Source: Pararhizobium sp. IMCC21322 (GTDB taxonomy: Bacteria; Pseudomonadota; Alphaproteobacteria; Rhizobiales; GCA-2746425). From it: DNA of 64,000 bases. The notes beneath the pieces are model-generated. The model did no database searches, was not told the origin of the DNA, and was given only the letters and a program-made list of their open reading frames with translations. The translations under genes were made by a program, and so were the position numbers. Below are positions 26,998 to 51,450 of the stretch, one piece after another (positions within the stretch are counted from its first letter, which is position 1; each line of letters starts with the position of its first letter). The stretch spans positions 3,944,412-4,008,411 of the forward strand of contig NZ_CP132335.1 in the NCBI RefSeq assembly GCF_030758295.1. The letters are read 5' to 3'.

Positions 26998-27008
26998 GAT
27001 GATGCGCT

Positions 27009-27024
27009 CACTTGTCGTCAAGTG
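27009..27024 (-). repeat. Hairpin element before module B
   Basis: Third copy of the cacttg-N4-caagtg hairpin, 11 bases before the module B start codon; no strong ribosome binding site is visible between the two, so the hairpin may influence initiation. Confidence 0.5.
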
Positions 27025-27063
27025 TGAAAACAAAGGGAAGTATAAAGGTGAAAGAAACCGGTC

Positions 27064-29562: not shown

Positions 29563-29769
29563 CTAGGCGCTCTGTCCCAGCAGTGTTGCCCGGCTTACAT
29601 TCTTGCCAAAACCTGTATCCCCCAGAGCCGATGTAAACACCGATCCGGCAGCACCCTTTGCATTGCGCGCACGGCGGCGTGCATCCTGAACCAGAGACGC
29701 CTCTTCATCGCGCTTTGGTGCCGTTGGCAGTGGTTTTGGTTTCGCAATTTTTGGTTTCGACATGCACAT
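29563..29769 (-). CDS. Small phage protein upstream of portal
   Basis: 68 residues, basic, with a KPKIAKPKPLP start and a Gly/Ala-rich end (GSVFTSALGDTGFGKN). ATG 29769 has GGAG ten bases upstream; an ATG two codons later is possible. It overlaps the end of the gp13-like gene and abuts the portal gene. Similar short basic proteins sit before portal genes in many podovirus-like prophages; function unknown. Confidence 0.6.
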   Translation of the reverse strand: MCMSKPKIAKPKPLPTAPKRDEEASLVQDARRRARNAKGAAGSVFTSALGDTGFGKNVSRATLLGQSA

Positions 29770-30304
29770 GTTTGAAAGTCTCCGTAAATCGGCTCAACAG
29801 GCGAAGCGTCTGCTTCAGCCGGTCGCGATGCCATGCAAATAAAATGAAAATTTCGCCGTCCCGGCCAAGGCCGGACAGCCGCCCTTCTTCCACCGCGCCA
29901 ATGGCTTTCAGCCAGCGATGCGCAGTGCTGTGCTCGGCAATGGAACGCGCCTCGATGCGTGTAACGCCACTACTTAGCCAGCCGGGCAACAACGTGTCGC
30001 CCACCCAGCGGGTCAGATCGCCTATAATGTAAGGACTGTCCTTTGTGCCGAACGCCCAGGCATTCAGCGCATTGCCAGCAAGGGTAATGGCATCAAAGCC
30101 AAACACCATCACCGGCATGCCCTTCCAATAGGCCACAAAACTGGTTCCGGGCCGGGTGCAGATATAACCAATTTCCCGGGCACTGATACTGGCTGGCAAC
30201 TGGCAGAAAACTTCTCGCTGATCGCCCGGTCTCAACTTGCCCGCAATATAGGAAACATCGCGCACATTGGCTGGCCCCACCTCAAATCTGTGGGGCAAGC
30301 GCAA
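29705..30304 (-). CDS. T7 gp13-like internal protein (acetyltransferase-like fold)
   Basis: 199 residues. The pattern GPANVRDVSYIAGKLRPGDQRE, then GTSFVAYWKGMPVMVFGFDA and the C-terminal AHRWLKAIGAVEEGRLSGLGRDGE resembles the GNAT-like DUF2833 / T7 gene 13 family, needed for correct assembly of internal virion proteins. The start is uncertain: TTG 30304 overlaps the upstream gene by 23 bases, and GTG at 30280 is an alternative. Lies just before the portal block. Its retention fits a particle that still loads internal proteins. Confidence 0.6.
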   Translation of the reverse strand: MRLPHRFEVGPANVRDVSYIAGKLRPGDQREVFCQLPASISAREIGYICTRPGTSFVAYWKGMPVMVFGFDAITLAGNALNAWAFGTKDSPYIIGDLTRWVGDTLLPGWLSSGVTRIEARSIAEHSTAHRWLKAIGAVEEGRLSGLGRDGEIFILFAWHRDRLKQTLRLLSRFTETFKHVHVETKNCETKTTANGTKAR

Positions 30305-30512
30305 TCACCGCAGCCAGCGGATAGGCCACAAGGGTTACGTAATACAAATGGGCCGCATTTCGTCCTGCTTCTGCTGCATAACGCAGCCAGTCAGCCCCAA
30401 GCCCAGCCAGCACCAGCACAAACGCAACTGCATGGCCCCAGGCAATCGCCGCCAGCGCAATCAGCACCGCCGCAACAACCGACAGGACAGCCGAAATCGT
30501 GTCATGAAACAT
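30282..30512 (-). CDS. Small two-helix membrane protein in phage operon
   Basis: 76 residues, with hydrophobic segments at about 8-42 and 56-74 separated by WLRYAAEAGRNAAH. ATG 30512 has AAGGA nine bases upstream. It precedes and overlaps the gp13-like gene. It could be a phage accessory or a leftover partner of module C located just upstream; no family recognised. Confidence 0.55.
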   Translation of the reverse strand: MFHDTISAVLSVVAAVLIALAAIAWGHAVAFVLVLAGLGADWLRYAAEAGRNAAHLYYVTLVAYPLAAVIALAPQI

Positions 30513-30645
30513 GAAATTATCCTTCTATCATTGTGAATTTTTAAATTTGATACGGGACAGCGCGGTCCGGCACAATCAGCAGTCAGAAAATTGATGGACT
30601 AAGGTCTGGCCAAGGTCTGGCCAAGGTCCGTGCCGACCACGCCCC

Positions 30646-32619: not shown

Positions 32620-33183
32620 CTAGCGCTTCCAAACAATACTGTAGTTCGGGCCGGTGACTCCGTTTAAATTGAATATCTGTCCGAAGCCAATGCATCCACA
32701 ATTCGGAACTTCACATGTCTCAATCGTTTCATGTCCTCCACCATAGGAAAATAATATCTTTTCTATTTTATCTACGTCTCCTTCAAAACCAATTATATCT
32801 ATTTTTCGTGATGTCATCACGTAATTCAAGTAATGCTTCAAAATATGATGGCCCACATCAAATGACGCATCGTTAATCCAACTTGGTAAAATTCCATGGA
32901 CTGCAAGTTGGTTTATCTGTTCTTTTTCTGCATCAAAATCTATTATAATTGACGCGCTGGATATACGAATTATAAATCCAGATTCTGTTTTGGTTAGATA
33001 CCGTACTGGATCAAATAAAAATTGATCCCCCAAATTGTCATAATCTTGAATTGGCAAGTCGATACCAAAAAAATATGGGTCTTTGCATGCAGGCTCCTCT
33101 TCAGTACCGGTTGCTTCACCATATGCCGGCGACGCGGCAATCAGCATGAAAAGCGAAATCAATTTGCTGAATCTGCGTATCAT
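32620..33183 (-). CDS. Candidate immunity protein for module C (exported)
   Basis: 187 residues from ATG 33183 (AAGGG about nine bases upstream). A signal peptide (LISLFMLIAASPAYG) directs it to the periplasm. The mature part starts with an ACKDPYFFGIDLP block and ends with a cysteine cluster CEVPNCGC near residue 163, suggesting disulfides. AT-rich compared with the structural genes. A frameshifted relative lies at 38127-38701, next to the remains of a C-like toxin, so the two genes evolve as a pair. Family not recognised. Confidence 0.6.
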   Translation of the reverse strand: MIRRFSKLISLFMLIAASPAYGEATGTEEEPACKDPYFFGIDLPIQDYDNLGDQFLFDPVRYLTKTESGFIIRISSASIIIDFDAEKEQINQLAVHGILPSWINDASFDVGHHILKHYLNYVMTSRKIDIIGFEGDVDKIEKILFSYGGGHETIETCEVPNCGCIGFGQIFNLNGVTGPNYSIVWKR

Positions 33184-33247
33184 TTCTGCGGCCCTTTCAT
33201 TAACAAATTCAGTTCTGATGTTTCAGCCGAATACAAGATCCTACGCT

Positions 33248-33529
33248 TCAGCTTTGGCTATCTGTAGGAGGGCGATGAGAAGTCACATTTAGTCGGTTTC
33301 GTTCGGCCTTGCGGCTTCCTGCTGACGCAACGTATATCTCGCAGCCAATCCAAATCGCAAACATCGGCAAGATCCATAACGCTGCCAAATAAAAATGTAA
33401 CGTAATCACCCAATAGGGAGCTAGATAGTCAGCAATATTCACGCCAAGAACAAAACAGGGTTCAAAGGCATTACGATAATAATTGCATCCCCATGCCTCA
33501 GCTAAAGGCGTAGTTATAATCTCAATCAA
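33248..33529 (-). CDS. Small membrane protein near module C
   Basis: 93 residues, with one or two hydrophobic stretches (NIADYLAPYWVITLHFYLAA and LWILPMFAIWIGCEIYVA) and a polar, basic C-terminal tail. AT-rich. It is transcribed ahead of the module C pair and may be a further membrane-located protective protein or an orphan from an earlier module. No family recognised; coding status likely but not certain. Confidence 0.45.
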   Translation of the reverse strand: MIEIITTPLAEAWGCNYYRNAFEPCFVLGVNIADYLAPYWVITLHFYLAALWILPMFAIWIGCEIYVASAGSRKAERNRLNVTSHRPPTDSQS

Positions 33530-33628
33530 AACAACTATTGCGGGCCAAAATACAAATAGTGATATTAATATCCTGAATTTTACGAAAATAACTCACATTT
33601 TTATGATTTTCACATCTGGAACGAAGAA

Positions 33629-33709
33629 TTAATTCAGATACAGCGTCCAGATCACACCACCTGAAATCAGAAACAGCAACTTAAGCCACGACGGAGCATT
33701 CAAAAGCAT
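33629..33709 (-). CDS. Possible 26-residue membrane peptide
   Basis: A short frame, MLLNAPSWLKLLFLISGG to the stop, containing a single hydrophobic helix. The upstream GGTGA is only a weak ribosome binding site. It resembles in size and nature the 38-residue peptide before module D. Coding is not certain. Confidence 0.3.
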   Translation of the reverse strand: MLLNAPSWLKLLFLISGGVIWTLYLN

Positions 33710-33846
33710 AGTTTGTTCACCGACGGAAAAAGGCCCCACACCAACCAGATCTTACGCCATCTGGCGCACCAGAAAATTATAAATTGTCGGCGCAAGAAGA
33801 CGACAGTGTGACACATCCATGCAAATCTCTGAGCATAAACCCTACG

Positions 33847-34563
33847 CTAGTCTAAAACCGGTTCAAGGCCAATCACCACATCGCCAAACAACCCGTTCCG
33901 CGCAGCTTTAAAACGCGATGTCTGCATCACCTCGTCAACCATCTGTGCGCGCAGATTTGCAGGCAGAGGAGCCGCTTCTGCAACCTCCAAAAGTCGCTGC
34001 ACATGTGTGTCAAAGCTCTCAGGTAGAACTTCATTCAGCATTTGGTCGCGTCGGGCTTCCACCACCTGGACGCCATAATCAATCCCCTGATCGCGCTCAC
34101 GCATTGCCGCCTTTTGCTCAAACAAATCAACATCTTTTGCAAGCCGTTCCTGAAACAGAACCTGCTCGTTCTCGGGAATTTGGTCCAGCAATGTACGCGC
34201 GCCCACGTCAAGCACATCATTTTTGAAGCTTTCGAAAATCCCATGGCCATTTGCCGGCGCAGCACTCGTCACTTCGTCCAATGCATTGTCCATTTGCGCA
34301 TTAAACTGTTGTTGTTGTTGGTAGGCTTCTGTTTTCCCTCGCTTACGCTCCAGCTCTGCTTGCCGTTTCGCAAGATCTCCAGCCTCGCCTTTTGCGTCTT
34401 GTTCGGCTCTCTGTGTCGTGATCTTCAACGCAGTTTGCCCTGCCTCCTCAACAGCCCGGCCAAACTCTCCAAGTCGCTGCAAACGCGATGTATCAACGGA
34501 AAGCTGTTGTGCGGAGCCTGTATCCAATCCCCGCTGCGCGCGGTAATCCGGTAATCTTGCCAT
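33847..34563 (-). CDS. Internal virion protein-like coiled-coil protein, probably truncated
   Basis: 238 residues starting MARLPDYRAQRGLDTGSA, a start I associate with long internal (gp15/gp16-like) proteins of alphaproteobacterial podoviruses. Residues 50-110 are highly charged and glutamine-rich (AELERKRGKTEAYQQQQQF), a likely coiled coil. It ends at a TAG after VVIGLEPVLD, much shorter than typical internal core proteins (800 residues or more). A reasonable reading is that this is the N-terminal piece of the original ejection protein whose C-terminal part now forms the shared module of the toxin genes. AGGA seven bases before ATG 34563. Confidence 0.55.
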   Translation of the reverse strand: MARLPDYRAQRGLDTGSAQQLSVDTSRLQRLGEFGRAVEEAGQTALKITTQRAEQDAKGEAGDLAKRQAELERKRGKTEAYQQQQQFNAQMDNALDEVTSAAPANGHGIFESFKNDVLDVGARTLLDQIPENEQVLFQERLAKDVDLFEQKAAMRERDQGIDYGVQVVEARRDQMLNEVLPESFDTHVQRLLEVAEAAPLPANLRAQMVDEVMQTSRFKAARNGLFGDVVIGLEPVLD

Positions 34564-34656
34564 ATCAAATCCTGTGAAAAAGTGGTTCTAAAATCTGGTT
34601 GATTGCGAATAGCCACCTGCCGACTAATCCACACGTTAGAGCGCCGCAAATACGCT

Positions 34657-36546
34657 TTATTGGGAGATGCCCTGCCCTGAAGGCAGCGCCCCATTGCTGG
34701 CAGTTCGTGCCAGACTGTAGGCAATCACATCATCCGTGCGTGGCCCAAAGCTTTGCTGCAGCTGGGTGTAATGCTGTTTCAGCTCCGCCTCACGTGCCCG
34801 CCGGTCAGTTGGGGTGCCATTGCCAGCCTGAGGCACTTCAAACCGCGCCGCCACCTGGCTTGCCCAGCGCGGCGGGATCATTTCAATAGCAGGTTCTGCA
34901 ATGCCAATCTCCCGCTGCGCTGCTTCATGATAGAATAAAACCGCATCCATCTCCTCTGCATCCACCGCCTCATTGGCATCAAAGGCTGCATCAAACTGTG
35001 CTTTGCGGTTGCTCAAATCAGATGACAGTAACACAGCCTCAGACGGCTTGGTGCGGCGCATGTCCAAAATGTCTCTGGCACGCTCTGCCGCTGCCGCCAG
35101 CACCTTCGGCGTCATCAATTCAGCCAGCTTCTCATGAGGCGCTTCCAGCTTTGTTGTGCCGTCAGCAATGCCGAACAACTCAGCATCCTGCAGCAAGTGC
35201 AATCCTGCCGTTGCATTGGAAATGAAGCCCGCTTCCAGCCGGTCATCCACAAAGGCCTGATAGGCCTCCTCCCCAAGCAAATCCCGCACAGTTTTGGGGT
35301 GTCCATACCGGTCCCACACAGTCGAGACTTTCCCGACTTTGATATCCTCCAGATCCTGCGCCATTTTCCGCTGTACATCAAAGCGCGCCAGCCGCTCAGC
35401 TTCTGCCTTGTCCGCCTCTTTGCGCCCATTGTAGCCAACCATCTCAGCCGCAAGGATCAACCGCCCATCATCAGGCATATCCTTCAGATAACCTTCTGTA
35501 ATCGGGTTCAGCTTTGGCCGTGGGCGCGGAACTGGTGGCATCTCCGACAATCGTTCATTGTTTGTTCCATTAATGATTTCAACACTTCGGTTGAGTCGTT
35601 CAAGCCCTTTTCTCACCCCGTCCGGCAACAAACCACTATCAAGACCTAGAGCTGCTTCCATTTCAGTATCCCGGCTACCAGTGGTAACAAGTGTATGCGC
35701 TCTATCGACCCGGTCAAATGCTGTTTTTCCGTGTAATCCGTCTCTTCTTTTGTCAGCCTCCTCGACCAGGGGTTGGCCGTAAAATGAACCGCTCTTTGAC
35801 ACTCGAAAGTTGCCATCGCCAACTTTATTATTGAAACCATACATGTCACTATTTTGAGAGGAACTCCGCTGGGAAGGAACCTCGTAAACGCCATATGGGT
35901 GTGTTGGCGTTTGTGGAATCGCGTCTATTCCAATTTTATTCGGAAGTGACCACTTTTCATACTGCCAGGCTTTCATCTTCATAACCTGCTTCATAAAATA
36001 GGGCGTGGTTTTGGTCTTATAGTTTTGATAGGTACGATCATGGGCCATGGAGTTATAGAGAGAGTAAATGTCTTCTGGATAGGGTTCATCCAACCTCTTC
36101 CTGATTTCCGACAAAAGCTTTGCGGTAAGGCGGATATTATCCCCCTTGTTGCGGATATCAGTTCCTGGGATTAGGTCTTCCCATTTTTCTAGGATGTTGC
36201 CCGGTAAAATAGTGTCTGAACCTGAGAGATTAATTCTGTCATACCACCCCCTACTCATCTCTGTATATATAATGGCACGTACCAAATCCGGCTCAATCCC
36301 AAATTCACGGGCTGCGGCTGAAATCAGACCATCATTTTCTCTAACAAATTTTCCAGCTCCAAAGTTGTCCTGCAAACTCAGATAAACTGGAATTCCGAAC
36401 GGGTTTACATCAAGTCTGTTCTCGAATATTCCATTTCTAAATTCTTCGACCTCTGCAATTTCCTGATGCTGAAACTTAAATTTGTCGTTGGTGCTGTTCA
36501 GGATGGACCCAACACGTTCAGCCGCGATAACGAGATATTTTGACAT
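34657..36546 (-). CDS. Module D: lysozyme-like domain fused to shared phage module
   Basis: 629 residues from ATG 36546; the open frame extends upstream to 36681 without a good start. Residues 70-190 resemble a lysozyme-fold muramidase: E96 in AIIYTEMSRGWYD is a good catalytic candidate, followed by a LPGNILEKWEDL block and NSMAHDRTYQNY. The linker (LLPDGVRKG, near 330) and C-terminal shared module follow. This layout, murein-cleaving N-terminus and long C-terminal part, recalls T7 gp16. The protein may therefore be closest to the ancestral ejection protein. A membrane-anchored periplasmic small protein is encoded upstream. Confidence 0.65.
   Translation of the reverse strand: MSKYLVIAAERVGSILNSTNDKFKFQHQEIAEVEEFRNGIFENRLDVNPFGIPVYLSLQDNFGAGKFVRENDGLISAAAREFGIEPDLVRAIIYTEMSRGWYDRINLSGSDTILPGNILEKWEDLIPGTDIRNKGDNIRLTAKLLSEIRKRLDEPYPEDIYSLYNSMAHDRTYQNYKTKTTPYFMKQVMKMKAWQYEKWSLPNKIGIDAIPQTPTHPYGVYEVPSQRSSSQNSDMYGFNNKVGDGNFRVSKSGSFYGQPLVEEADKRRDGLHGKTAFDRVDRAHTLVTTGSRDTEMEAALGLDSGLLPDGVRKGLERLNRSVEIINGTNNERLSEMPPVPRPRPKLNPITEGYLKDMPDDGRLILAAEMVGYNGRKEADKAEAERLARFDVQRKMAQDLEDIKVGKVSTVWDRYGHPKTVRDLLGEEAYQAFVDDRLEAGFISNATAGLHLLQDAELFGIADGTTKLEAPHEKLAELMTPKVLAAAAERARDILDMRRTKPSEAVLLSSDLSNRKAQFDAAFDANEAVDAEEMDAVLFYHEAAQREIGIAEPAIEMIPPRWASQVAARFEVPQAGNGTPTDRRAREAELKQHYTQLQQSFGPRTDDVIAYSLARTASNGALPSGQGISQ
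34674..35567 (-). repeat. Shared module, copy D
   Basis: Fourth copy of the ~895-bp repeat, with the same left end as copies A and B and the KMAQDLEDIKVG variant shared with copy C, so it is a mosaic between the two subgroups. Confidence 0.9.
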
Positions 36547-36771
36547 TACTAATCTTTCAGCTTTTGTTGTTGAAGATTGTGCTGGATACAAAGTCACAAG
36601 CACATACCAAGCATCCGGCGGTTGCTTCGGTTTCCATTTGCGCCTTACAAGACTTGGAACAAGCGCAGCTGACCTCGCCAATCGGCTGGTCGAGAAAAAT
36701 GTATTCTTACTTTACGTGGATGGAATCCAACTTAGCTAATGATTGGAAATAATCAGAAAGTTAGCCGAGCG

Positions 36772-36888
36772 TTAAATTCTTATCGCTAACATTAGTTCCG
36801 CTGTGACGTGCGACAAGGGAAATGCGGTGACCAACAGTGCAAAAATCAGGACAGACAAAAGGAACAAATACCCTAATTGAGAGGCCAT
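36772..36888 (-). CDS. Possible 38-residue membrane peptide upstream of module D
   Basis: MASQLGYLFLLSVLIFALLV leads a single strong hydrophobic helix, ending at TAA. It starts 15 bases after the immunity candidate's stop and shares its transcript; the nearest SD-like sequence (GGTAGG) is rather far. It could help export or membrane insertion, or be an unrelated short frame. Confidence 0.4.
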   Translation of the reverse strand: MASQLGYLFLLSVLIFALLVTAFPLSHVTAELMLAIRI

Positions 36889-36903
36889 TTGTTGCTTTTG
36901 TGC

Positions 36904-37386
36904 CTACCAGCATCTGAAGTCCAATCCTACAGAAAAACCTCCAGAATCAATCCTTACAAGCATGAGACTATCTACAATATCCAGATAGACATCAGCATTT
37001 GACCCATCATCCGGCTTACGCGCTGCGGCGAAAACATGGTTTTGGGCGACCAGTTTCCAATTCAATAATTGCTCCGCATTAAAGCCGCCAAAAGTCTCAT
37101 ACAACCGCGTCCCCGAATAAAAGCAATACTCCCCACTTCCAATGTTAGCACTGATATAACGCCCTTCCGCAATGAGCCTACTATTGGTGTTTTCCGCCAA
37201 TTCATCGAAAACATGCAACTGTCGGGCAAATTTCCACAGCCGGAACTCATTCAAAACCATCGTGTACACAACCGGAACAGTTGGTAGCAACGCAATCACA
37301 AGGACAACAATCAATATCCGGGACAACACTCGTAACCAGCGAAATGACCTTTTGTCAGTTTTTTGGAGCTTAACTGCTTCGCTCAT
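36904..37386 (-). CDS. Candidate immunity protein for module D (membrane-anchored)
   Basis: 160 residues from ATG 37386. A basic N-terminus (KLQKTDKRSFRWLR) is followed by one hydrophobic helix (VLSRILIVVLVIALLPTVPV), placing the remaining 110 residues in the periplasm. That location fits protection against a murein-cleaving enzyme. Two cysteines (EYCFYSG; DFRCW) may pair. It ends about 360 bases before module D, with only a short hydrophobic frame between. No family recognised; immunity role inferred. Confidence 0.55.
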   Translation of the reverse strand: MSEAVKLQKTDKRSFRWLRVLSRILIVVLVIALLPTVPVVYTMVLNEFRLWKFARQLHVFDELAENTNSRLIAEGRYISANIGSGEYCFYSGTRLYETFGGFNAEQLLNWKLVAQNHVFAAARKPDDGSNADVYLDIVDSLMLVRIDSGGFSVGLDFRCW

Positions 37387-37464
37387 TTTTGGTCACTTCC
37401 ACACATAGATATTATGACACCAAGTTTGGCTTTCCATCGAGAGGCTAAACACCCATATTGGCGG

Positions 37465-38126
37465 TTAAATCTGGCCAATATACGGCTGACAATGCAGTCC
37501 TGCCGTTGCATTGGAAATGAGGCCCGCTTCCAACCGGTCATCCACAAAACTCTGATAGGCCTCCTCCCCAAGCAAATCCGGCACCGCTTTGGGGTGTCCA
37601 TACCGGTCCCACACAGTCGAGACTTTCCCGGCCTTAACATCCTCCAGATCCTGCGCCATTTTCCGCTGCACATCAAAGCGTGCCATCCGCTCAGCTTCTG
37701 CCTTGTCCGCTTCCTTGCGCCCATTAAAGCCAACCATCTCAACTGCCAGGATCAACCGCCCATCATCCGGCATATCTTTTAGATAGCCTTCCGTAATCGG
37801 GTTCAGCTTTGGCCGTGGGCGCGGAATTGGAGGCTCAACGGGCGATTGTTCATTGTTTGTTCTATTCTCCAGGCGAGCAGAAATCATCTTTGAACGATGA
37901 GCAATAGCTGCTCCAATACCAGGCAACACCTCAAAAATATCATTGGGTGCCAGTCCTTCGATCAATTCTCCGGCCCTTTCATTGTCAAAGTAAACCAGTC
38001 CCCAGAAGAGATTGGTCCGGCGTCTACAAAACGCGATAAGACAGAGCCGTCACCACTAATTGTCTTCTCGAGTTCCAGCAGTGCTTTGGCAAAGTCTACC
38101 TTGAACTATATACTCAGATCCGCCAT
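37465..38126 (-). pseudogene. Module E: degraded C-like toxin gene
   Basis: From ATG 38126 the frame reads MADLSI, then a TAG, then FKVDFAKALLELEKTISGDG, clearly related to the start of module C (MENFGIEFKVNFSKALLEIEN). After about 35 codons the frame shifts, most of the N-terminal domain is missing, and the sequence resumes with IFEVLPGIGAAIAHRSKM and the first part of the shared module. It then breaks off at NATAGLHCQPYIGQI. So it has an in-frame stop, a frameshift, an internal deletion and a truncation; it cannot make a full toxin. Confidence 0.8.
37489..37862 (-). repeat. Shared module, copy E (partial)
   Basis: Fifth copy, only the first 374 or so bases of the module-coding repeat (TNNE to NATAGLH). 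It could still serve as a donor for recombination with the intact copies. Confidence 0.85.
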
Positions 38127-38701
38127 CTAACGCCTCCACAAAATGCTGTACGTTGGACCCAAATGCCCGTCAAAATCATAAATTTTTGCGATACCAACAC
38201 AACCGCAATTCGGCGCTTCACACGCTTCAATCTCTTCATGTCCTTAACCGTGGAATAAGGAGATTTCCTCAAATTCCATTCCGCTCATTTCGACGTCCAG
38301 AATCTGCCAACCACCTACATTCAGAAAGTAGCCAATAAAATGGGTTATTATCTCCGGGCCTACATCAATTGATGCGTCATGAACCCAATTTGGAAGAAAC
38401 CCATAGCCCCCAATTGCATGATCTGCTCAGTTTCAAAATTGTAAGAAATAAACGTCGGTCCATAAACTGATCGGAGTAAAAATCCATCTTCAGTTTTAGA
38501 CATACTTCGTATTGGATAGGTTCCTCCCAGGTCGGACGAAATCTCCACAGAGACTGCAATTTCCTCAAGTGGGTTATCGAGACCGAAAAAGAGTGGATTT
38601 TTGCAGAATGCGTCCTCATTACTGTATGCCGCCTTCGAATAAACAAGGGAAACTGCAAACAACATTATAAGTAGAGAAAATTTTTTCGATATTTGTTTCA
38701 T
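38127..38701 (-). pseudogene. Degraded C-type immunity gene
   Basis: Starts at ATG 38701 with a signal peptide (FSLLIMLFAVSLVYSKAAYS) and an FCKNPLFFGLDNPL block matching the module C partner. Near 38400 the frame shifts; the other frame continues with NWVHDASIDVG, then after an in-frame TAA (SLFHG-stop-GHEEIEACE) the conserved CEAPNCGC end and a YSILWRR C-terminus. Its final TAG abuts the ATG of the degraded toxin, exactly as in the intact C pair. Loss of both partners fits decay of a duplicated pair. Confidence 0.8.
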
Positions 38702-38999
38702 TGTTTGGGATACATCTATTTCAAAATCATGTATAACTCGGTTCAATATTTGTAGAACTTATTCTGATTTATGCCATTGTTATAAATTTTGTTTTCTATT
38801 TTCTTCATCCAATTACACAATTAGAGATAACTTCTTTGAAACGCACCTCACGTCATGGTCATTCCGGAACATACTAAAATACTACAGAAATAACTTCCGA
38901 TCAGACATTTCATTTTTGAAAATACCAATACTTCATTGTGCTGATATTCATGAACAATAATTATGTTCATTTTTCGCTCTCTGAAATTGCCAGTTCTAT

Positions 39000-40328
39000 T
39001 CAAAACCCGCCTAGCGGGTCATTCAGAGGGGCATGCGAATTCTGCTCCGCATAATCTGCGGATGAAACCATCACCGGGGAAACGCGTTCGGCAAATGTCA
39101 GTGCCAGCGCGTCCCCCAGATCCGGCGACGGAATACCGCGTTTCTTCATGTCATCTTTCTTCTCAAGCTGAATGCGGTTATTCGCGTCGTAACTGTATTC
39201 AGGGCCCAGCAGGTCAAATTCCAGTTCCGGGTTGGCGGCAATCATGCCCCGGTCCTTCAACCAATCGCGCATGCGGCCCCAGCATTCAGCGCGTTTGTTG
39301 TAATAGCGCGTCTGCTCGGTGGCCCGGCCACCGGCATTCACATCCACGGCCCGCAGGCCCAATTGCCGCAAACGATCCACCACGCCGCCACCAACGCCCA
39401 CCCCATCGACAAAAATCCGGTCAGGGCGCGCCCTGTCTGCAATTTCAGCCACTTTCGAAGCCGTCTGCATGGTATCCAGCCCCTGCCAGGTGATGATTTT
39501 CATCAGCTTGTCGCCATGGCGAATGGCCAGTGCAGAGCGGTCATCGCCAAAACGAGCCACATCCAGACCAAAAATCATAGGCCGCTGCGGGTCGTCCATA
39601 ATCCGGCCTAGCGCCTGCTGCAAATGCTCATAGGTGATAAATTGCACCGCTTCTGCGGCTTCAAACGAGCAGTAATATTCCTGCTGTACCTTGTCTTCCG
39701 ACATGCCGGACAGGCGTTCTTCCTGCATATGCTCTTTGGTCAGCACCTGCGTATCCTCCACCGTCAAACGTTCAAAAAACCAGGCCGGGTTTTTCTGTGC
39801 CATCACCGCCATCTGGAAAGCGTGGTTGCGCCCGCGCGGTGTGGTGTTGAACCAGGCCCAGCCGCCATTTTCCATCAGGATCGGACGAATGAAATCCCAC
39901 GATTGCGGGTTGGTCAGCGCCCATTCGGAAAACACCACCCCAACCGGGTTGGCCCCCACCAGCGCATCGTAATTATCCGCTCCCGCCAATTGCCAGACCG
40001 AGCCGTTTTTAAACTCGATCAGCATTTCATCACTCAGCTTGCGCGCCCGCAACGCTTCGGGAAACGCCTGATCAATCATGCGGCGGCCCTGCCGGTCCAC
40101 ATTGTTCCACACCACCTTGCGCGCCTGGCGCTGCGAGGGCAGCAAATGCCAGTAAACACCGGGACGGCGAAACATCTCCTTGGCGGCATAGTTCAACCCG
40201 GCGGAATCCTTACCGGCACGCCGATGCCAAAGCGACATCGCCCGCTTCCCGCCCCCATCCAGATACGACATGACCGGTATCTGGTAAGCGCGCGGCGTCC
40301 AGTCATTGGGAAGGCGTATCTGGGTCAT
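39000..40328 (-). CDS. terL: Terminase large subunit
   Basis: 442 residues. The ATPase part has a Walker A-like loop HRRAGKDS (35-42) and Walker B with catalytic glutamate in VGVVFSEWAL (129-138). The nuclease part has the first aspartate in GLDVARFGDDRSA (254-266), VDGVGVGGGVVDRL near 310 and the last acidic site in SPDLGDALALTF near 410. It packages DNA into the head through the portal. It overlaps terS by 26 bases. All key residues are present, so the particle may still package DNA, host or element. Confidence 0.92.
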   Translation of the reverse strand: MTQIRLPNDWTPRAYQIPVMSYLDGGGKRAMSLWHRRAGKDSAGLNYAAKEMFRRPGVYWHLLPSQRQARKVVWNNVDRQGRRMIDQAFPEALRARKLSDEMLIEFKNGSVWQLAGADNYDALVGANPVGVVFSEWALTNPQSWDFIRPILMENGGWAWFNTTPRGRNHAFQMAVMAQKNPAWFFERLTVEDTQVLTKEHMQEERLSGMSEDKVQQEYYCSFEAAEAVQFITYEHLQQALGRIMDDPQRPMIFGLDVARFGDDRSALAIRHGDKLMKIITWQGLDTMQTASKVAEIADRARPDRIFVDGVGVGGGVVDRLRQLGLRAVDVNAGGRATEQTRYYNKRAECWGRMRDWLKDRGMIAANPELEFDLLGPEYSYDANNRIQLEKKDDMKKRGIPSPDLGDALALTFAERVSPVMVSSADYAEQNSHAPLNDPLGGF

Positions 40329-40836
40329 GGCTCATCTTTGCAAAATCTATAATGGCAACAGTCACACTGCTCGCCTCACTCTTGGTCGCCGGCGTCCTGC
40401 TGTCCGTCATCAGCCCCAGCAATTTGGCCTTGCCCATCGTGGCGGAAACAGCGGTATTCGCGCCCTTCTCGTCGCCCATCGCCTTCACACGGGCTTTTTC
40501 CAACTCACAGGTCAGCGCACGAATATCGGCATCCGACACGCCGTGCCCAGCCGAGGCAGCGCTCGCCACCGCAGCCCTGGCCACCCCCGCCCCATTTTCT
40601 GCAGCGGCAACCTCCTGCAACTCCATAATCCGCAAAATCACATCCTGATTGCCCAGCACAGCGCTGGCCTCATGCCAGACCACCGCATCCGAAACCGCAT
40701 CCGGCACATCAAACGCCGCCCGATACGCCTCCAGCGCCCGATAGGACGCCACATAAGCCACAACAAAGGCCGCCTGCGCCTCTGTCAGCACAAGCCCACG
40801 CTCAAACAGCATGCCATTAGGCTGTGTTTCGCTCAT
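40303..40836 (-). CDS. terS: Terminase small subunit-like protein
   Basis: 177 residues directly before TerL. The LTEAQAAFVVAYVASYRALE helix and AYRAAFDVPDAVSDAVVWHE segment match the DNA-recognition part of Terminase_2-type small subunits, followed by a helical region and a less conserved C-terminus. It is the first gene of the phage transcript. A possible promoter (TTGATA, 18 bases, TATTAA on the minus strand) lies near 40890-40920. Confidence 0.75.
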   Translation of the reverse strand: MSETQPNGMLFERGLVLTEAQAAFVVAYVASYRALEAYRAAFDVPDAVSDAVVWHEASAVLGNQDVILRIMELQEVAAAENGAGVARAAVASAASAGHGVSDADIRALTCELEKARVKAMGDEKGANTAVSATMGKAKLLGLMTDSRTPATKSEASSVTVAIIDFAKMSHDPDTPSQ

Positions 40837-43202: not shown

Positions 43203-43757
43203 TCAGCGCCGACGCTCCACCACAAGCAAATCCGGCGCTGGCTTGCGTGAATTGATCCGTTGATACCGGTTCACCGCAAAATCATCCTCCAGATTCTGCG
43301 CAAAGGCCAGCACATTCCGCGCCTCTTCCGCACCGCCAGTATGGCCGGGATACAGCACAATCGTCATCAGGCCACCAACACTCAGCAACGCTAAAGCCTG
43401 CTGCACCGCCGCCAATGTGGTTTCAGCGCCGGTCATGACTGTCTTGTCGGCACCCGGCAGATATCCCAGATTAAACATGACAGCAGCCAGTTTGACAGTC
43501 TGGCCATCCAGATGCGCCGCCAGCGTCTCATGCCCTGCATGCACAAGCCTGACATGAGTTCGCTCACCCAAACGGGCCACGGTGTATTCCAGTGCAGCCT
43601 TTTGTACATCAAACCCGATCACCCGCCCGGACGGCCCAACCTGATCTGCCAAAAACAAGGTGTCATGCCCGTTCCCAACGGTTGCATCGACAACAACATC
43701 GCCCTCTTTCAGCCTTTGCCCCAGCAACAACTGAGCCATACAAGTCGCCCGCAGCAT
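43203..43757 (-). CDS. mnmM: MnmM (YtqB)-like tRNA wobble-uridine methyltransferase
   Basis: 184 residues, a Rossmann-fold SAM-dependent methyltransferase. Motif I VVDATVGNGHDTLFLA (about 22-37) and the FNLGYLPGADKTVMT block (about 95-109) are signatures of the YtqB/MnmM family, which methylates the aminomethyl group of nm5s2U at tRNA position 34. ATG 43757 overlaps the stop of the DAO-type oxidoreductase gene by one base (TGATG). That neighbour resembles the oxidase half of MnmC, so the pair may carry out the same two steps as the bifunctional MnmC enzyme. Substrate assignment is from family and context. Confidence 0.75.
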   Translation of the reverse strand: MLRATCMAQLLLGQRLKEGDVVVDATVGNGHDTLFLADQVGPSGRVIGFDVQKAALEYTVARLGERTHVRLVHAGHETLAAHLDGQTVKLAAVMFNLGYLPGADKTVMTGAETTLAAVQQALALLSVGGLMTIVLYPGHTGGAEEARNVLAFAQNLEDDFAVNRYQRINSRKPAPDLLVVERRR

Positions 43758-44818
43758 CAGGCTGGGTCTCCCGGCTTTGCATATTGCTGCACATCAAAGT
43801 CCGCAGGCACCGGACTTCCCGTCACCAGACAGTCGCAAAAAAGATGGGCAAACCAGGGCCCATGCAATGATCCTTTGGAACCAAGCGCGTTGAAAAAACC
43901 CAATTGCGAATGGGTGGGATGAAACCCGATCAAAGCTTTGCTTTCCCGCACAATGGGCCGCACAGCCGCCTCATGATTGATGACCTTGTAGGGCACATGA
44001 AAGAAGGATTTCAGCTTTTCTTCCAGCACCAAACCGGCAGCAGCGTCAGGCACGTCATCCAACTGCGCCCAATCATAGCTCGCCCCAAGGCGAAACACGA
44101 AAGGGTCCTCGGTCGGGGCAAGCCACATACCACGATGCAGGCTGTAAGCGGGAACGGGGGCAGCAAACCGCAACGTCAGAATGTCACCCTTGGCCGCATT
44201 AAAAGGCACGAACCCGAAATACGGGTTGGCCGCAGCCCCATAGCCCTCGCACGAGACGACATAACGCGTTGTATGCCCCAAAACGCTCACCGCATCTGCA
44301 TCAAATGCCACATCTCGGTGCCAATCCACAGCGGTCTGCTCAACGGCTAGCAAACCCCTCGCAGCATCCAGAAATGCCGCCACATCCAACTGAGCCGCTT
44401 TCATGGAAAAGCCGCCAGCGGATATATCCGCAACATTTTCTGGCAACAACGCATCCACAGCCTCATCGGCCAGATGCGCACAAAATTGCGGATCAGCACG
44501 CCGCTTTTCAAAAACCGCCTGCTCCGCCTCTTTAGTGAACAACCGCACGGCCTTGCGGTCATGGAAAAAGCGGCGGTGAGACTTGTCCTCAATCTGTCTA
44601 TAAAAGCTGCGCGCATAGGGCAGAAAATCATCCGCCCGCCAACTTACAGTCAATCGCTGACCGGTGATAGGCGTCATCAATCCGGCTGCTATTTTGGAGG
44701 CCGTTACCGCCTTTCCTGCATCCAGCACCAGCACGCGCTGCCCTGCCGCCTGCAGATGCAGCGCCAGATTTGTGCCGGCCAACCCCTGCCCGACAATGAC
44801 CACATCAAATGCGGCCAT
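43757..44818 (-). CDS. DAO-family FAD-dependent oxidoreductase (MnmC oxidase-like)
   Basis: 353 residues. FAD-binding GQGLAGTNLALHLQAAG (11-27) with the dinucleotide GxGxxG pattern, then GLMTPITGQRL near 46, typical of the DAO fold in MnmC-type enzymes. Near the C-terminus GFFNALGSKGSLHGPWFA gives the conserved GSKG-type FAD motif. It probably removes the carboxymethyl group from cmnm5s2U in tRNA before methylation by the MnmM-like partner encoded immediately downstream. One-base overlaps (TGATG) join it to both neighbours. Alternative: oxidation of a free amino acid. Confidence 0.75.
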   Translation of the reverse strand: MAAFDVVIVGQGLAGTNLALHLQAAGQRVLVLDAGKAVTASKIAAGLMTPITGQRLTVSWRADDFLPYARSFYRQIEDKSHRRFFHDRKAVRLFTKEAEQAVFEKRRADPQFCAHLADEAVDALLPENVADISAGGFSMKAAQLDVAAFLDAARGLLAVEQTAVDWHRDVAFDADAVSVLGHTTRYVVSCEGYGAAANPYFGFVPFNAAKGDILTLRFAAPVPAYSLHRGMWLAPTEDPFVFRLGASYDWAQLDDVPDAAAGLVLEEKLKSFFHVPYKVINHEAAVRPIVRESKALIGFHPTHSQLGFFNALGSKGSLHGPWFAHLFCDCLVTGSPVPADFDVQQYAKPGDPA

Positions 44819-46011
44819 CAGCTTGCAACTTTCTGAAGAACGTCATCGCTGCGCCGTGTGGCCAACAGCACCGCAAAAGCCGCAATAGTTCCACGAGAGG
44901 CCAGTTGAATCGCCGTCCTGAAATCATAAAAATGGGCGATCAATCCCATGGATGAACTTGCAATCAGCCCACCCAAAAACAGGCCGTTCATATAGAGTGA
45001 CGTCGCCCTTGCCATCCGCCCGGCGGCAAAACTTTGCACAAAGGTAATGCCCACTCCGGCAAAGATTCCGTAATACAGCCCTTCCAGAGCAGATCCGACA
45101 ATCATGGTGGTAAGGTTGGAAACGGAAGACCGCACCCAAAACGCCACAAGCCCCAGAACTGCAGCACCCAAAAGCACGTGACGCGCGCCAAAGCGAATGA
45201 TCAAAACAGGCGCACTCAAAATGGCGATAATCTCCACAAAAGTCTTCACCGAAAAGGAAAGTCCTGGCGCAAAAGTCGGCAGGCCAACTTCCTGAATGTA
45301 AAACAAGGGCAGCGCATTGCTGCACAGAATATGTGCCAGCGAAAAACAGAAACACGCAGTGGCCGCATACCAGAGCGGTCGGTTAAAAGCCTCCGGTTTG
45401 GCGTCGGTAGCAACACCCGATGCGACACGAGGTTCCACAGCAAAATCCGCTGGCATCACAAAATACCACAGAATAAGCCACAACGCTGCCATCCCCAAAG
45501 CCACCTTGAAAACAGCAACATGCCCGAATTGCCCTGCCACAAAAAATGCCAGGGCCGGAGAAATCATCCACCCAAGAGATGTCATGGACCGCAAATAGGA
45601 ATTATAGCGCACAATGTTCAGGCCTTCGCGCTCGGCATAGAGCCGACCGAAACTGTACATCGTGGAAAGCGCGGCTGATGCCACGCCAAAACACAGAAAA
45701 GCGACGCTCACAAGAACCCAGTAGGATTGCACAATCAATATAGAACAATTGGCAATGACAAACGCCACAATGCAGACCAGCACAAGTGGTGCAACACGCC
45801 GCCCCTGGTCAATCCATTCGCCAAATCGACGGTTTACAATCAACGCCACGACCAGCGTCATGGCAGAGTAAACGCTGATCATCCAGGGGTCTTTTCCAAG
45901 CCCCTCGACAATATAGACACCCATGAACGGAACAATGGCTGATGTGGACATGACGCCAACCAGCAACAGCACAAGCGTCCACACGGCCCTATGATTCTGA
46001 ATCGCCATCAT
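44818..46011 (-). CDS. MFS transporter (SET-like)
   Basis: 397 residues and 12 hydrophobic segments. NRRFGEWIDQGRR after the second helix and the overall pattern (GVASAALSTMYSFGRLYAER) resemble sugar-efflux SET-type carriers. First gene of the operon with the DAO-type oxidoreductase and MnmM-like genes. The two ATGs at 46011 and 46008 both lack a clear ribosome binding site. Its link to tRNA modification is not obvious; it may only be co-transcribed. Confidence 0.8.
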   Translation of the reverse strand: MMAIQNHRAVWTLVLLLVGVMSTSAIVPFMGVYIVEGLGKDPWMISVYSAMTLVVALIVNRRFGEWIDQGRRVAPLVLVCIVAFVIANCSILIVQSYWVLVSVAFLCFGVASAALSTMYSFGRLYAEREGLNIVRYNSYLRSMTSLGWMISPALAFFVAGQFGHVAVFKVALGMAALWLILWYFVMPADFAVEPRVASGVATDAKPEAFNRPLWYAATACFCFSLAHILCSNALPLFYIQEVGLPTFAPGLSFSVKTFVEIIAILSAPVLIIRFGARHVLLGAAVLGLVAFWVRSSVSNLTTMIVGSALEGLYYGIFAGVGITFVQSFAAGRMARATSLYMNGLFLGGLIASSSMGLIAHFYDFRTAIQLASRGTIAAFAVLLATRRSDDVLQKVAS

Positions 46012-47682: not shown

Positions 47683-48780
47683 TCAGATGGATTTCGTGCT
47701 AAGGTGATTGTCCCAGCCAAGCTCTGAGGTACGGTCTCCAACAACGCCGCTGCCAGTGGAAAAGCAAAAACGGCTCTCATGGCCCTCGACACCACAAACG
47801 TCGGTCATGTGTCTCGTCTCCAGGATGCTACCGCTTTTGGCATCTAACACATGGGCAACGTGTCCACGTGGCGAGGAAATGGCAATCTGACCAGTGGTCC
47901 TGTTGGCCGCAATGGATCCCACATAACCGCGAAGGCTCGCCAGAACCGCGTCCGACAGTTCAACAGTCGAAAAAGCACCGCTGGCAAAAGAAACCCGCCC
48001 AACCAGCGGAACCAACTGCGTTTGATCACCTTCGTTCTGACAGGCAAACCAGACAGTATCTTCATCAAGCATGGTCAGATGCCTGATCGACAATTGATGA
48101 AGCTCTGCAGGCAGCCTGTATTGCGCTTTCAGATCACCTGTGGACAGGTCAATGAAACTCAGATTTGGCTGCATCGTTGGTATGTTCAGCTTGGTACGGA
48201 AAAATTCGGGATGCGTCTCAATACCGCCATTGGCCACCACAAGGGTGCGGCCATCTGGCAGGAGGTTCATGTCGTGTGGTCCCAGACCATGAGACTCCAA
48301 CTCACCGTTCCGTTCAAACCCGGCAGACACATCATAAATTCCGATCGTGCCACGTGGAGCTTCATAGTCATTCTCGGTCGCATAGAGCCATCGCCCATCA
48401 GCTGAGAACACACCATGACCGTAAAAATGCCTGCCTTCCGGAGCGTGAAAGACAGTCGGAGCGCTCCTGGAGTTAACCCGAATGACCGCTCCAAACACTC
48501 CCGGTCGCCGCGCAAATGCCACCATCAAGCTGTTATCAGGGCTCCAGACTACATCATGCCCACGGGCGGGCAAATCATATCGATGAACGACATCACCACT
48601 TGCAGTAAGAGTAGCAACGCCAAAACCTCCATTCTGCGATCTGTAGGCCGACGCAAAAACCGCATCTGAAGTATTCACGGCCATCGCCGCCTTCGGTGAC
48701 AGCGCAGCCAGAAATATGCCACCAGTGGATTGCAGGAAAGAGCGCCGGTCAATCAGCCTTGTTGAGCCAACATCATCCAT
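47683..48780 (-). CDS. DUF1513 Tat-exported beta-propeller-like protein
   Basis: 365 residues from ATG 48780 (TGATG overlap with the upstream gene). A twin-arginine signal (DRRSFLQSTGGIFLAAL) is followed by repeated beta-propeller blades (HDVVWSPDNSLMVAFARRPG, HGVFSADGRWLYATENDY, LGPHDMNLLPDGRTLVVANG). DUF1513 proteins occur with imelysin-like and di-haem proteins in iron-related operons of Gram-negative bacteria; biochemical role unknown. Last gene of a four-gene operon beginning at 52763. Confidence 0.85.
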   Translation of the reverse strand: MDDVGSTRLIDRRSFLQSTGGIFLAALSPKAAMAVNTSDAVFASAYRSQNGGFGVATLTASGDVVHRYDLPARGHDVVWSPDNSLMVAFARRPGVFGAVIRVNSRSAPTVFHAPEGRHFYGHGVFSADGRWLYATENDYEAPRGTIGIYDVSAGFERNGELESHGLGPHDMNLLPDGRTLVVANGGIETHPEFFRTKLNIPTMQPNLSFIDLSTGDLKAQYRLPAELHQLSIRHLTMLDEDTVWFACQNEGDQTQLVPLVGRVSFASGAFSTVELSDAVLASLRGYVGSIAANRTTGQIAISSPRGHVAHVLDAKSGSILETRHMTDVCGVEGHESRFCFSTGSGVVGDRTSELGWDNHLSTKSI

Positions 48781-49889
48781 CAATCGCCGTCCAGCGATGA
48801 AAAACCGGATGACAGTCCAAATATGGGTTTGATCATATCGCGCGTAATCGTGAGCATGCTGTCGACAACAAGTCTCACATAGGTCAACCGGTTATAAGTC
48901 TCTTTTTCGGACAGCATAATAGGAAGCGGCTTATCCAGATTAGCCACAGCGCGCTTTGCATTTCCCAGTTCAAAATTGAGACTTGAAATAATGCGTCGAT
49001 CATCCCCCTCAACCCGTCGCTCAAGTTGGGCAGATTTCATGACGGCTTCAAACCCATCAAAATTGGCTTTCAAAGACGGTATTGTATTTCCAGAGCGCCA
49101 AAACAAAGCAGATTTTGGCCTTGCACTGGCCATGTCATCTCGCAAAACCGGTTCAAGACGTTGATGAGACACGATTTCAAGCCCGTCTTCCAAGATTTCC
49201 AGCACGGCCGAAAACTGCTCGGCTTCATCACGAAACAGAGCGTTTATCGGTGATGGGTTCAACCAGATATGGGAAATACTGGTGTCACCTTCCGCCTGCC
49301 ACAGATTGCTCAGCTCTCCGGTCAGCTGCGCCACAGCGCTCGCTATTGCCGTTGCATAAACACAGCGATGGCTGTCTGCAGCGGCCATCTCAATCTCGGC
49401 ATCATCAGAGAAAAGCGTATATTCCAAAGCCAGAAGGCCTTGAACCGCAACGCTTTTTTGCACAAGAAATTCCGGGTCCAGAACAGTTTTGTCAGCCAAC
49501 CGGATGATATCACGAACCTGCTTCAGCCCCCGTCCGCGCCTGTCGGGCCAGAACAGCATCCGTTCAAGCCGGCTGTCTGCGCCAAGTGGTCCAAGCCTGA
49601 TGAACTCAACCCGCCCCCAACGCGCCAAAAGTCCGTCAAAGGCTTCATGAACGTTTGAATATCCAGCTTCTGTCGGTGCTTCACAATAGGTGTTTATTTG
49701 CTGAGACATGGTTGCGGCACTCCGCTCCAGATCAGCAAAACCGGGCCGGATCACATTGGTGATCAAATCGGAAACCATATCTTTGGCATTCAGCTGCTCA
49801 ATGTCTTTCCCAATTGCAATTGGCAACGGCGCTATCAACAGACAAACCGACAGAGCAAAATATCTTACAAAACAGCTGGCAAAAATCAT
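48780..49889 (-). CDS. Imelysin-like (M75 family) exported protein
   Basis: 369 residues from ATG 49889, one base after the stop of the di-haem gene. A signal peptide (FALSVCLLIAPLPIAIG) leads to a helical imelysin fold: RWGRVEFIRLGPLG and QGLLALEYTLFSDD are the typical blocks, the latter in the position of the GxHxxE motif, which is not conserved here. Such second imelysin-like proteins accompany IrpA-type proteins. Peptidase activity is doubtful; a role in periplasmic iron handling is more likely. Confidence 0.8.
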   Translation of the reverse strand: MIFASCFVRYFALSVCLLIAPLPIAIGKDIEQLNAKDMVSDLITNVIRPGFADLERSAATMSQQINTYCEAPTEAGYSNVHEAFDGLLARWGRVEFIRLGPLGADSRLERMLFWPDRRGRGLKQVRDIIRLADKTVLDPEFLVQKSVAVQGLLALEYTLFSDDAEIEMAAADSHRCVYATAIASAVAQLTGELSNLWQAEGDTSISHIWLNPSPINALFRDEAEQFSAVLEILEDGLEIVSHQRLEPVLRDDMASARPKSALFWRSGNTIPSLKANFDGFEAVMKSAQLERRVEGDDRRIISSLNFELGNAKRAVANLDKPLPIMLSEKETYNRLTYVRLVVDSMLTITRDMIKPIFGLSSGFSSLDGD

Positions 49890-49890
49890 C

Positions 49891-51450
49891 TCAAAGACTT
49901 TCCAAAAAGGCAATCAGCGCATCACGATCTGTTGTTTCCATCTCGGCAAAGGTGTCGCGTGCGGCTTCCGCCTCTCCGCCATGCCACAGGACGGCTTCTG
50001 TCAGATTGCGCGCCCGTCCATCATGCAGAAAAAACGTGTGGCCATTGACCATCTCGGTCAGGCCAATACCCCAAAGTGGCGGTGTGCGCCATTCACGGCC
50101 ATTGGCCACGCCCACCGGCTGACCGTCTGCCAGTCCATCGCCCATATCGTGCAACAGGAAGTCTGAATAAGGCCAGATCAATTGGAAGGCATGAGAAGGA
50201 TGCCTGGCATTCCGCGAGGTCACGAATTTGGGTGTATGACAGGAAACGCAGCCTGCACTGTAAAACAATTCCTTGCCTTTCAAAACCTGCTCCTCTTCAA
50301 CCTGCCGTCGCGCTGGCACCGCCAGGTTTTCAGAGTAAAAGGTCACAAGGTCCAGCACGGGATCAGGCGCTTCGGTGTCACCAAGTCGGGCCTGAACACC
50401 CGTGGTGTAAGACCAGCACTCAGACTGGTTTTGCGTACAGTCTCCAAAGTGACGCGGCTCATCCGGGGACGAAATCCCGATATCGCCTGCAAAGGCAGAG
50501 GCACTCTGCTGACGCACGGTGGCATTTTCGGCCTTCCAGCCAAATCGGCCAGTCAATATCTGCCCGCTGCTCTTGTCACGCGCCAACGCCACACGTCCCG
50601 ATATGCCATCCCGGTCAACGTCATGTGGGTCGGCACCTGCACGAATGTCCGCAGCTTCAATAGCTTCAATCAGACCCATACCGATCATTGGTGGCGCTAT
50701 TCTGGGCGAAAGAGTGGTATCGGGATGAAGCGGTCCATAGGCAAGGTTGACCACTGAATAGACCGGCTCTCTCAGGCTGACGACGCTACCATCACCCAAC
50801 ACGAATCCGCGCTCGGTATAGGAAATCACCATATTTCCTTCAGCCCGAAGGCCAGGCACGGCCAGATCCTGCAATTGGCCACCATAGGTTGGGTCCTGAA
50901 GACTGCCGACAAAAAAAGCGCCGGAGTTGCGTTCCTCATCCGTAACTTCAGCGGGTCGTGCGAGCCGCAAAAACATCGATGTAGCATCCGTGTCGCCTTC
51001 CGGCGGATGCCCCCGTCCATCCTTCAAATGGCAGCTTTGGCATGCTCTGGCGTTAAACAGCGGGCCCAAACCATCAGATGCTTGTGTCGTTGCCGGTGAT
51101 GACACCCACAATTTTCGAAACAACGCGTTGCCAAGCTTAAAATTCTGCTCATCCTCAAAGCTGATCGTCGCGGTAAAGTGAGAAAATGCATCCCCGTTGA
51201 CAGACTTCAACGACGTTCCCGCGCCACCCTGGTTAACTTCAAAGACTTCCCCTTTTGAAAAATCAGTCGTCGGCGCAGAAACGGCAATGACCCGCTCCAG
51301 ATCAAGCTCCGACAAATCGGTACGTTTGACGGTCTCTGCGGAACCGCCCTCCGCAAACAGGCCTGTCTGCAGGAATAACAAACAAGCAAGACCGGCGAGA
51401 AAACTCGCCGGTCCAACAAAACGATCAAATGCAGTCCACATCAGAATCAC
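49891..51450 (-). CDS. Di-haem oxidoreductase-like protein (DUF1111)
   Basis: 519 residues with an N-terminal signal or anchor (FLAGLACLLFLQTGLFAEG). Two c-type haem sites, ACQSCHLKDG (about 136) and GCVSCHTPKF (about 401), and a PLWGIGLTEMVNGHTFFLHDGRARNL end as in DUF1111/thiol oxidoreductase family proteins. Probably a periplasmic c-type cytochrome. GTG at 51450 or ATG at 51441 are both possible starts. Second gene of the imelysin operon; 24 bases after the stop of the first gene. Likely to take part in redox steps of iron uptake. Confidence 0.85.
   Translation of the reverse strand: MILMWTAFDRFVGPASFLAGLACLLFLQTGLFAEGGSAETVKRTDLSELDLERVIAVSAPTTDFSKGEVFEVNQGGAGTSLKSVNGDAFSHFTATISFEDEQNFKLGNALFRKLWVSSPATTQASDGLGPLFNARACQSCHLKDGRGHPPEGDTDATSMFLRLARPAEVTDEERNSGAFFVGSLQDPTYGGQLQDLAVPGLRAEGNMVISYTERGFVLGDGSVVSLREPVYSVVNLAYGPLHPDTTLSPRIAPPMIGMGLIEAIEAADIRAGADPHDVDRDGISGRVALARDKSSGQILTGRFGWKAENATVRQQSASAFAGDIGISSPDEPRHFGDCTQNQSECWSYTTGVQARLGDTEAPDPVLDLVTFYSENLAVPARRQVEEEQVLKGKELFYSAGCVSCHTPKFVTSRNARHPSHAFQLIWPYSDFLLHDMGDGLADGQPVGVANGREWRTPPLWGIGLTEMVNGHTFFLHDGRARNLTEAVLWHGGEAEAARDTFAEMETTDRDALIAFLESL

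Follow-up and report, generated by a model that had tools for sequence, protein, structure and literature searches.

An FAD-dependent oxidoreductase linked to MnmM and a probable joint role of the two in mnm5(s2)U34 synthesis in Pararhizobium sp. IMCC21322

In the genome of Pararhizobium sp. IMCC21322, a gene for an FAD-dependent oxidoreductase, here called X, overlaps a gene for a tRNA methyltransferase of the MnmM (YtqB) family, and the two products probably complete the synthesis of mnm5(s2)U34 in tRNA by catalysing its final two steps. The substrate, cmnm5(s2)U34, would come from MnmE and MnmG, whose genes lie at other sites in the genome; X would oxidise the C(alpha)-N bond of its carboxymethylamino side chain, an N-substituted glycine; hydrolysis of the imine would yield glyoxylate and leave nm5(s2)U34; and MnmM would methylate the amine of nm5(s2)U34 with SAM to give mnm5(s2)U34. 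Judged by family, the methylation step is close to certain, its reaction being taken from the literature on the B. subtilis, S. aureus and plant enzymes. The oxidation step, for which we infer the chemistry described in the literature for MnmC(o), is well supported. Most likely, the pair does the work of both domains of E. coli MnmC with an unrelated methylase. The observations made here concern the identity of the genes, their overlap, the conservation of their linkage up to fusion, the absence of mnmC (above cut-off) and mnmL, key residues and the predicted fold.

The window analysed, a stretch of 64,000 nucleotides, contains both reading frames at the coordinates listed in Table 1. Inspection of the sequence bore out the one-base overlap that the original prediction had reported for the oxidoreductase and the methyltransferase: the stop of X and the start of MnmM share one base in TGATG.

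Table 1. Genes of the overlapping run in the window, with their profile matches
Feature	Coordinates	Strand	Profile match
X, FAD-dependent oxidoreductase, glycine oxidase/MnmC(o) type, 353 aa	43757..44818	(-)	PF01266 DAO, 86 bits
MnmM (YtqB), tRNA nm5(s2)U34 methyltransferase by family, 184 aa	43203..43757	(-)	NF053511, 197.4 bits
MFS transporter	44818..46011	(-)	PF07690, 75 bits; TIGR00899 (sugar efflux transporter), score below cut-off

The methyltransferase had been placed in the YtqB/MnmM family, as distinct from the methylase of MnmC, and this assignment held. The protein exceeded the equivalog cut-off of NF053511 (135 bits; Table 1), scored 137 bits against PF06962 and matched B. subtilis MnmM (8h0s) with an E-value of 4.6e-39. 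Passages of a study of the B. subtilis enzyme report that mutating D34, N101, Y104, K110, Y141 or H144 nearly abolishes activity and that K11 is also essential (PMC9976899). In the alignment, the first six of these correspond to D32, N96, Y99, K105, Y136 and H139 of the window protein, K11 lying outside the aligned stretch. Among 87 distinct MnmM sequences, D34, N101 and Y141 were invariant, H144 was kept in 86 and K110 in 66, and the position of Y104 was aromatic in all 87 (Y in 73, W in 11). The window protein thus shares both the family and the essential residues of the B. subtilis, S. aureus and plant enzymes. It differs from its Gram-positive counterparts in its partner, which is an FAD oxidase here and the radical-SAM protein MnmL there. 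It also differs from the B. subtilis enzyme in the residues contacting U35: Q163, Q176 and N178 are not kept in the X-linked MnmM group (window residues 158, 170 and 172). Because these U35-reading residues are missing, X-linked MnmM may extend its activity to tRNAs that lack U35, e.g. tRNA-Arg(UCU), as MnmC does; the loss of the contacts, together with W at the Y104 position, may reflect a different tRNA range.

The genome, a single contig of 5.25 Mb that is 100% complete, was then considered for known enzymes of the pathway. It encodes MnmE (257 bits, just above the TIGR00450 cut-off of 252.6, and well above that of NF003661) and, in the gene next to mnmE, MnmG (800 bits). A search of the whole genome gave no match to the MnmC(m) methylase domain (PF05430) and none above cut-off to MnmC(o) (TIGR03197). 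The best TIGR03197 match reached 63 bits, below cut-off, over positions 1-207, and X itself scored 39 bits in the same genome search. A normal mnmC hidden elsewhere in this complete genome was rejected on these grounds, in line with the absence of mnmC that the original prediction had proposed to check. The route of Gram-positive bacteria, in which the radical-SAM protein MnmL precedes MnmM, was rejected as well: no member of TIGR01212, the family to which we take MnmL to belong, was present in the genome at E 1e-20, in a search that does register B. subtilis. At the same threshold TIGR01212 was found in three of 64 genomes (G164, G166 and G171), none of which has MnmM above cut-off. With mnmE and mnmG present and neither mnmC (above cut-off) nor mnmL found, the enzymes for making the substrate are in place and no other known finishing enzyme was found.

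We also determined the family relationships of X. Its best NCBIfam matches were ThiO (TIGR02352, 53.8 bits, cut-off 250.8) and MnmC1 (TIGR03197, 52.4 bits, cut-off 174.2), and it failed both models. Since it lies below the MnmC1 cut-off, X is not filed as MnmC, and that it works like MnmC(o) is what we infer from other features. The identity of X to MnmC(o) and to ThiO is approximately 18% in each case, so that pairwise identity does not separate the two, and the profile scores together with the profile matches in the PDB place ThiO closer to X than MnmC(o). When a profile of 49 X sequences was searched against the PDB at E 1e-5, 14 sequences were returned, namely glycine oxidases and their relatives, then three MnmC and then weak matches.

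Table 2 of a study of MnmC lists the oxidase-half residues conserved in more than 98% of MnmC proteins and gives R567 as FAD binding (PMC3648344). Seven of the eight are found in window X (G271, G273, G287, G518, R567, G578 and G619 in MnmC numbering), and R653 is replaced by Q; most of the seven also occur in ThiO, so these residues do not single out MnmC. MnmC R567 aligns with R287 of window X, which is present in all 136 X rows (approximately 111 distinct), in 3/3 MnmC(o) and in 6/6 ThiO sequences. Among the controls, this arginine was found in 10/10 oxidases of mnmD-carrying Hyphomicrobiales and in 3/21 other DAO proteins (L197, L266 and L270). In glycine oxidase, the matching arginine binds the carboxylate of glycine. 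Further, a G[ST][KR]G motif at 313-316 was present in 115 of the 136 X rows and in two of the three MnmC(o) sequences, and in none of the six ThiO, ten mnmD-group or 21 other sequences; Y or F at 248 was likewise shared by X (133/136) and MnmC(o) (3/3), and was absent from the six ThiO sequences.

In the trees, X and MnmC(o), the latter represented by three sequences, formed one group with a support of 1.00 in FastTree and of 88.9 (SH-aLRT) and 92 (UFBoot) in IQ-TREE. Deeper IQ-TREE nodes were weak (47.4/65), and the node of X itself had a value of 0.74 in FastTree. For the first tree, 12 named loci were dropped as duplicates or fragments, along with any sequence containing X letters; the ThiO row L253 was trimmed to about half its length (167 aa). 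The IQ-TREE set held 66 sequences, 29 of them X, after three rows of the class ‘other’ had been dropped. Two further alignments comprised 49 of 53 planned rows, some with shortened ends (A3; L036, L054, L057 and L079 left out), and 13 of the 14 fused loci described below (A2; L068 left out).

The predicted model of X (pLDDT 94.8) matched, in this order, CmiS2 (Z 35.7, rmsd 2.3, 325 aligned residues), glycine oxidases (Z 35.5, rmsd 2.9, 340 aligned for glycine oxidase), iminodiacetate oxidase and then E. coli MnmC (Z 32.7, rmsd 3.4, 337 aligned). As the score of MnmC is barely above those of L-proline dehydrogenase (Z 32.0) and sarcosine oxidase (Z 31.4), the fold comparison does not point to MnmC in particular. 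In fold, FAD site and conserved arginine, X agrees with ThiO/glycine oxidase, CmiS2 and IdaA (iminodiacetate oxidase by PDB title), enzymes that oxidise the C-N bond of glycine or of N-substituted glycines. CmiS2 takes an N-carboxymethyl group off an amine as glyoxylate (PMC11284099), the chemistry required for cmnm5U. On sequence and predicted structure, X is thus best classified with the glycine oxidases and MnmC(o). The claim that the oxidoreductase resembles the FAD half of MnmC stands with regard to this type and fails with regard to the MnmC1 model; as to the nearest relative, the trees favour MnmC(o) and the profile scores ThiO.

In order to follow the linkage beyond this genome, 150 genomes of the order were searched. 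X was found in 11 of them (E 1e-20) and MnmM above cut-off in 10, belonging to three families; all ten MnmM genomes carry X, adjoining MnmM in every one (P = 9e-15 for the co-occurrence, uncorrected for relatedness). The X genome without MnmM above cut-off is a genus mate that is 98% complete (G145). The PF05430 methylase scored above 100 bits in 26 of the 150 genomes and in none of the 11 X genomes, a difference that is not significant alone (P = 0.11). MnmC1 was above cut-off in one genome (G044), in the same 593-aa frame as PF05430; this order-wide TIGR03197 search covered the top 11 candidates of each genome.

A second sample, of 398 genomes of the phylum, was searched starting from MnmM, which was above cut-off in 37. 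X was present in 35 of these: six have it in the same ORF as MnmM, 23 next to MnmM and six at a distance of 0.55-1.15 kb. Nearly all of the MnmM genomes belong to one family, that of the Zetaproteobacteria genome of locus L067 (G195, again as G258), so the 35 cases are not independent and the independent count is nearer seven genera. At L277 and L274 a gene lies between X and MnmM; judged by eye, it encodes an MFS transporter in the former and a cyclic-nucleotide-binding-like protein in the latter. Of the two exceptions, G283 lacks X within the 12.9 kb surrounding MnmM. The other, G292 (L286), has an MnmC1 ORF of 412 bits without PF05430 approximately 3 kb from MnmM (1127-2794 and 5775-6350), which indicates that a true MnmC(o) was combined with MnmM there by another way. 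The X HMM hit none of six ThiO loci at E 0.001 and gave 20-39 bits with a few other oxidases, so the link between X and MnmM is specific.

Further, when the X alignment was used to scan GTDB contigs, 80 loci were obtained from 97 relatives. MnmM was adjacent to X in 31 and fused to it in 14; none was nearby in 33, and the contig ended in two. For three of the 33 (L055, L057 and L079), the genome (G155, G156 and G168) carries MnmM at another site. Of the 42 loci of lower similarity (L059-L100), 27 had no nearby MnmM, 24 of them labelled Bacteroidota. The fused ORFs measure 534-668 aa from stop to stop and carry X first and MnmM second, joined by a variable linker. By label, 12 of the 14 come from Planctomycetota, one from Zetaproteobacteria and one from Akkermansiaceae, although some MAG labels look unreliable. 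One of the six fusions in the phylum sample is the L067 genome again and the other five are additional to the 14. For one fusion, the predicted structure (mean pLDDT 86.6) was confident in both domains and not in the linker (351-375); among PDB structures, one domain matched MnmM and the other the glycine oxidase group.

Together, the order and phylum samples and the fusions rule out that X and MnmM are chance neighbours. The joint function that the original prediction had proposed is in agreement with a linkage that is conserved past this genome, up to single X-MnmM proteins. The proposed composition, MnmM with an oxidase partner of the glycine oxidase/MnmC(o) type, also stood, whereas the notion of a split MnmC did not hold as a matter of descent, given the other methylase family and the reversed order of the fusions. 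Like E. coli MnmC, the pair combines an FAD oxidase of glycine-oxidase fold with a SAM methylase, and the same two reactions are proposed for it. In MnmC, in contrast, the methylase is of PF05430 and precedes the oxidase; here it is MnmM, the genes are separate, and the oxidase comes first where the two are fused.

For 50 of the 80 X loci, the genome was also searched with PF05430 and NF053511. MnmM was above cut-off in 18, and PF05430 in 18 as well. Fifteen of the PF05430 matches were strong (66 bits or more); none of these 15 genomes has MnmM, and 14 come from loci labelled Bacteroidota. The three weak matches (23-32 bits) were in G153, G168 and G193, of which G168 and G193 also have MnmM. 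MnmM and a strong MnmD match are both missing from 17 of the 50 genomes, one of them a Gemmata assembly of 9.3 Mb (G153); possible explanations are incomplete assemblies, nm5U as the end product or another substrate.

These 17 genomes would also suit an X that oxidises a small-molecule amine or amino acid and leaves MnmM to act alone on nm5(s2)U34 made by MnmEG with ammonium, a reaction of which MnmEG is capable according to a passage of PMC9976899. The fusion of the domains in records of several phyla, the near-complete co-occurrence of X and MnmM in two samples and the features that X has in common with MnmC(o) argue against this explanation, which we regard as unlikely.

Less probable still is that X is a ThiO glycine oxidase making iminoglycine for thiamine synthesis, with its adjacency to MnmM incidental. 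ThiO is by a small margin the best NCBIfam match of X, glycine oxidases are its best structural and profile matches, and its own genome has no ThiO above cut-off. Yet X scores far under the ThiO cut-off, and the fusion genomes G195 and G197 hold a separate ThiO above it (272 and 301 bits). Nor would a role in thiamine synthesis give a reason for the fusion and the repeated adjacency to a tRNA methylase. That X demethylates or oxidises mnm5(s2)U in the manner of a sarcosine oxidase, tuning the modification, is the least probable of all: sarcosine oxidases have the same fold and the linkage to MnmM suits any reaction at the U34 base, but mnm5U has no carboxylate, every X row keeps the arginine common to glycine oxidases and MnmC(o), and without X the genome would have no known enzyme for the conversion of cmnm5 to nm5.

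Besides X, oxidases of glycine-oxidase type were found beside mnmD in seven other Hyphomicrobiales genomes (L288-L293 and L295, in G116, G113, G084, G149, G093, G036 and G119). As in the X-MnmM pair, the oxidase gene adjoins that of a wobble-uridine methylase. In contrast to the pair, the methylase is of PF05430, the genes are divergent in 7/7 cases, and the oxidases belong to clades other than X, two separate ones, all below the MnmC1 cut-off. The ten mnmD-group oxidases used as controls comprise these seven and three from genomes in which oxidase and mnmD are on different contigs (G007, G006 and G094). Enzymes resembling MnmC(o) may therefore be less absent from alphaproteobacteria than reported.

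In passages of their study, Cho et al. 2023 describe the MnmC(o)-like enzyme of MnmM organisms as unknown, and mnmC(o) as missing in alphaproteobacteria and in Bacteroides, the latter carrying mnmC(m) (PMC9976899). The MnmD group of X genomes fits this account of Bacteroides. We tentatively suggest, as a possibility rather than an expectation, that X occurs widely as an enzyme resembling MnmC(o) and fills part of this gap. Its partner would be MnmM in Hyphomicrobiales, Zetaproteobacteria, Planctomycetota and Verrucomicrobiota, and in Bacteroidota an MnmD encoded at an unlinked site; the fusion of X to MnmM would then represent a second, convergent MnmC with another methylase and the reverse domain order, and MnmM of this group might also accept tRNAs that lack U35. 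The pair offers a concrete and testable candidate for part of the gap, in some species as one polypeptide, and suggests that different methylases were recruited on more than one occasion to build the same two-step chemistry on tRNA. Annotation pipelines could also give a name to X, which now passes general DAO models only. The titles and abstract openings of the tRNA-related matches listed in our literature search mention no operon or fusion of MnmM with an FAD oxidase. The abstract of Jaroch et al. 2024 reportedly names MnmL (radical SAM YtqA) along with fusion proteins and alternate arrangements; that work on alternative routes may therefore already contain part of the present finding.

With regard to mobile elements, plasmid records contained no relative of X at E 1e-10. 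Relatives of MnmM occurred in 10 plasmid records, all at less than 60% identity. Among the matches listed, two were N. gonorrhoeae records, with MnmM at 44% identity.

Finally, the neighbourhood of the pair was inspected. The MFS gene, not part of the original prediction, overlaps the start of X by one base and is the third member of an overlapping run that reads MFS, X and MnmM on the minus strand. It is found in the matching position in three genus mates (L010, L011 and L012) and gave no tblastn match in the other eight loci (L013-L020). It is perhaps on one transcript with the pair, and a role in the tRNA modification pathway is doubtful. On the far side of MnmM, positions 24511-40836 hold phage genes, among them a head-tail adaptor (27820-29562) and the large and small terminase subunits (39000-40836), which suggests that a prophage ends a few kb from the pair. 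On the other side, at 47683-51450, genes for a DUF1513 protein, an imelysin (Peptidase_M75) and a di-haem oxidoreductase (DHOR) lie on one strand with overlapping ends, which we take to be perhaps a cluster of the iron-uptake type.
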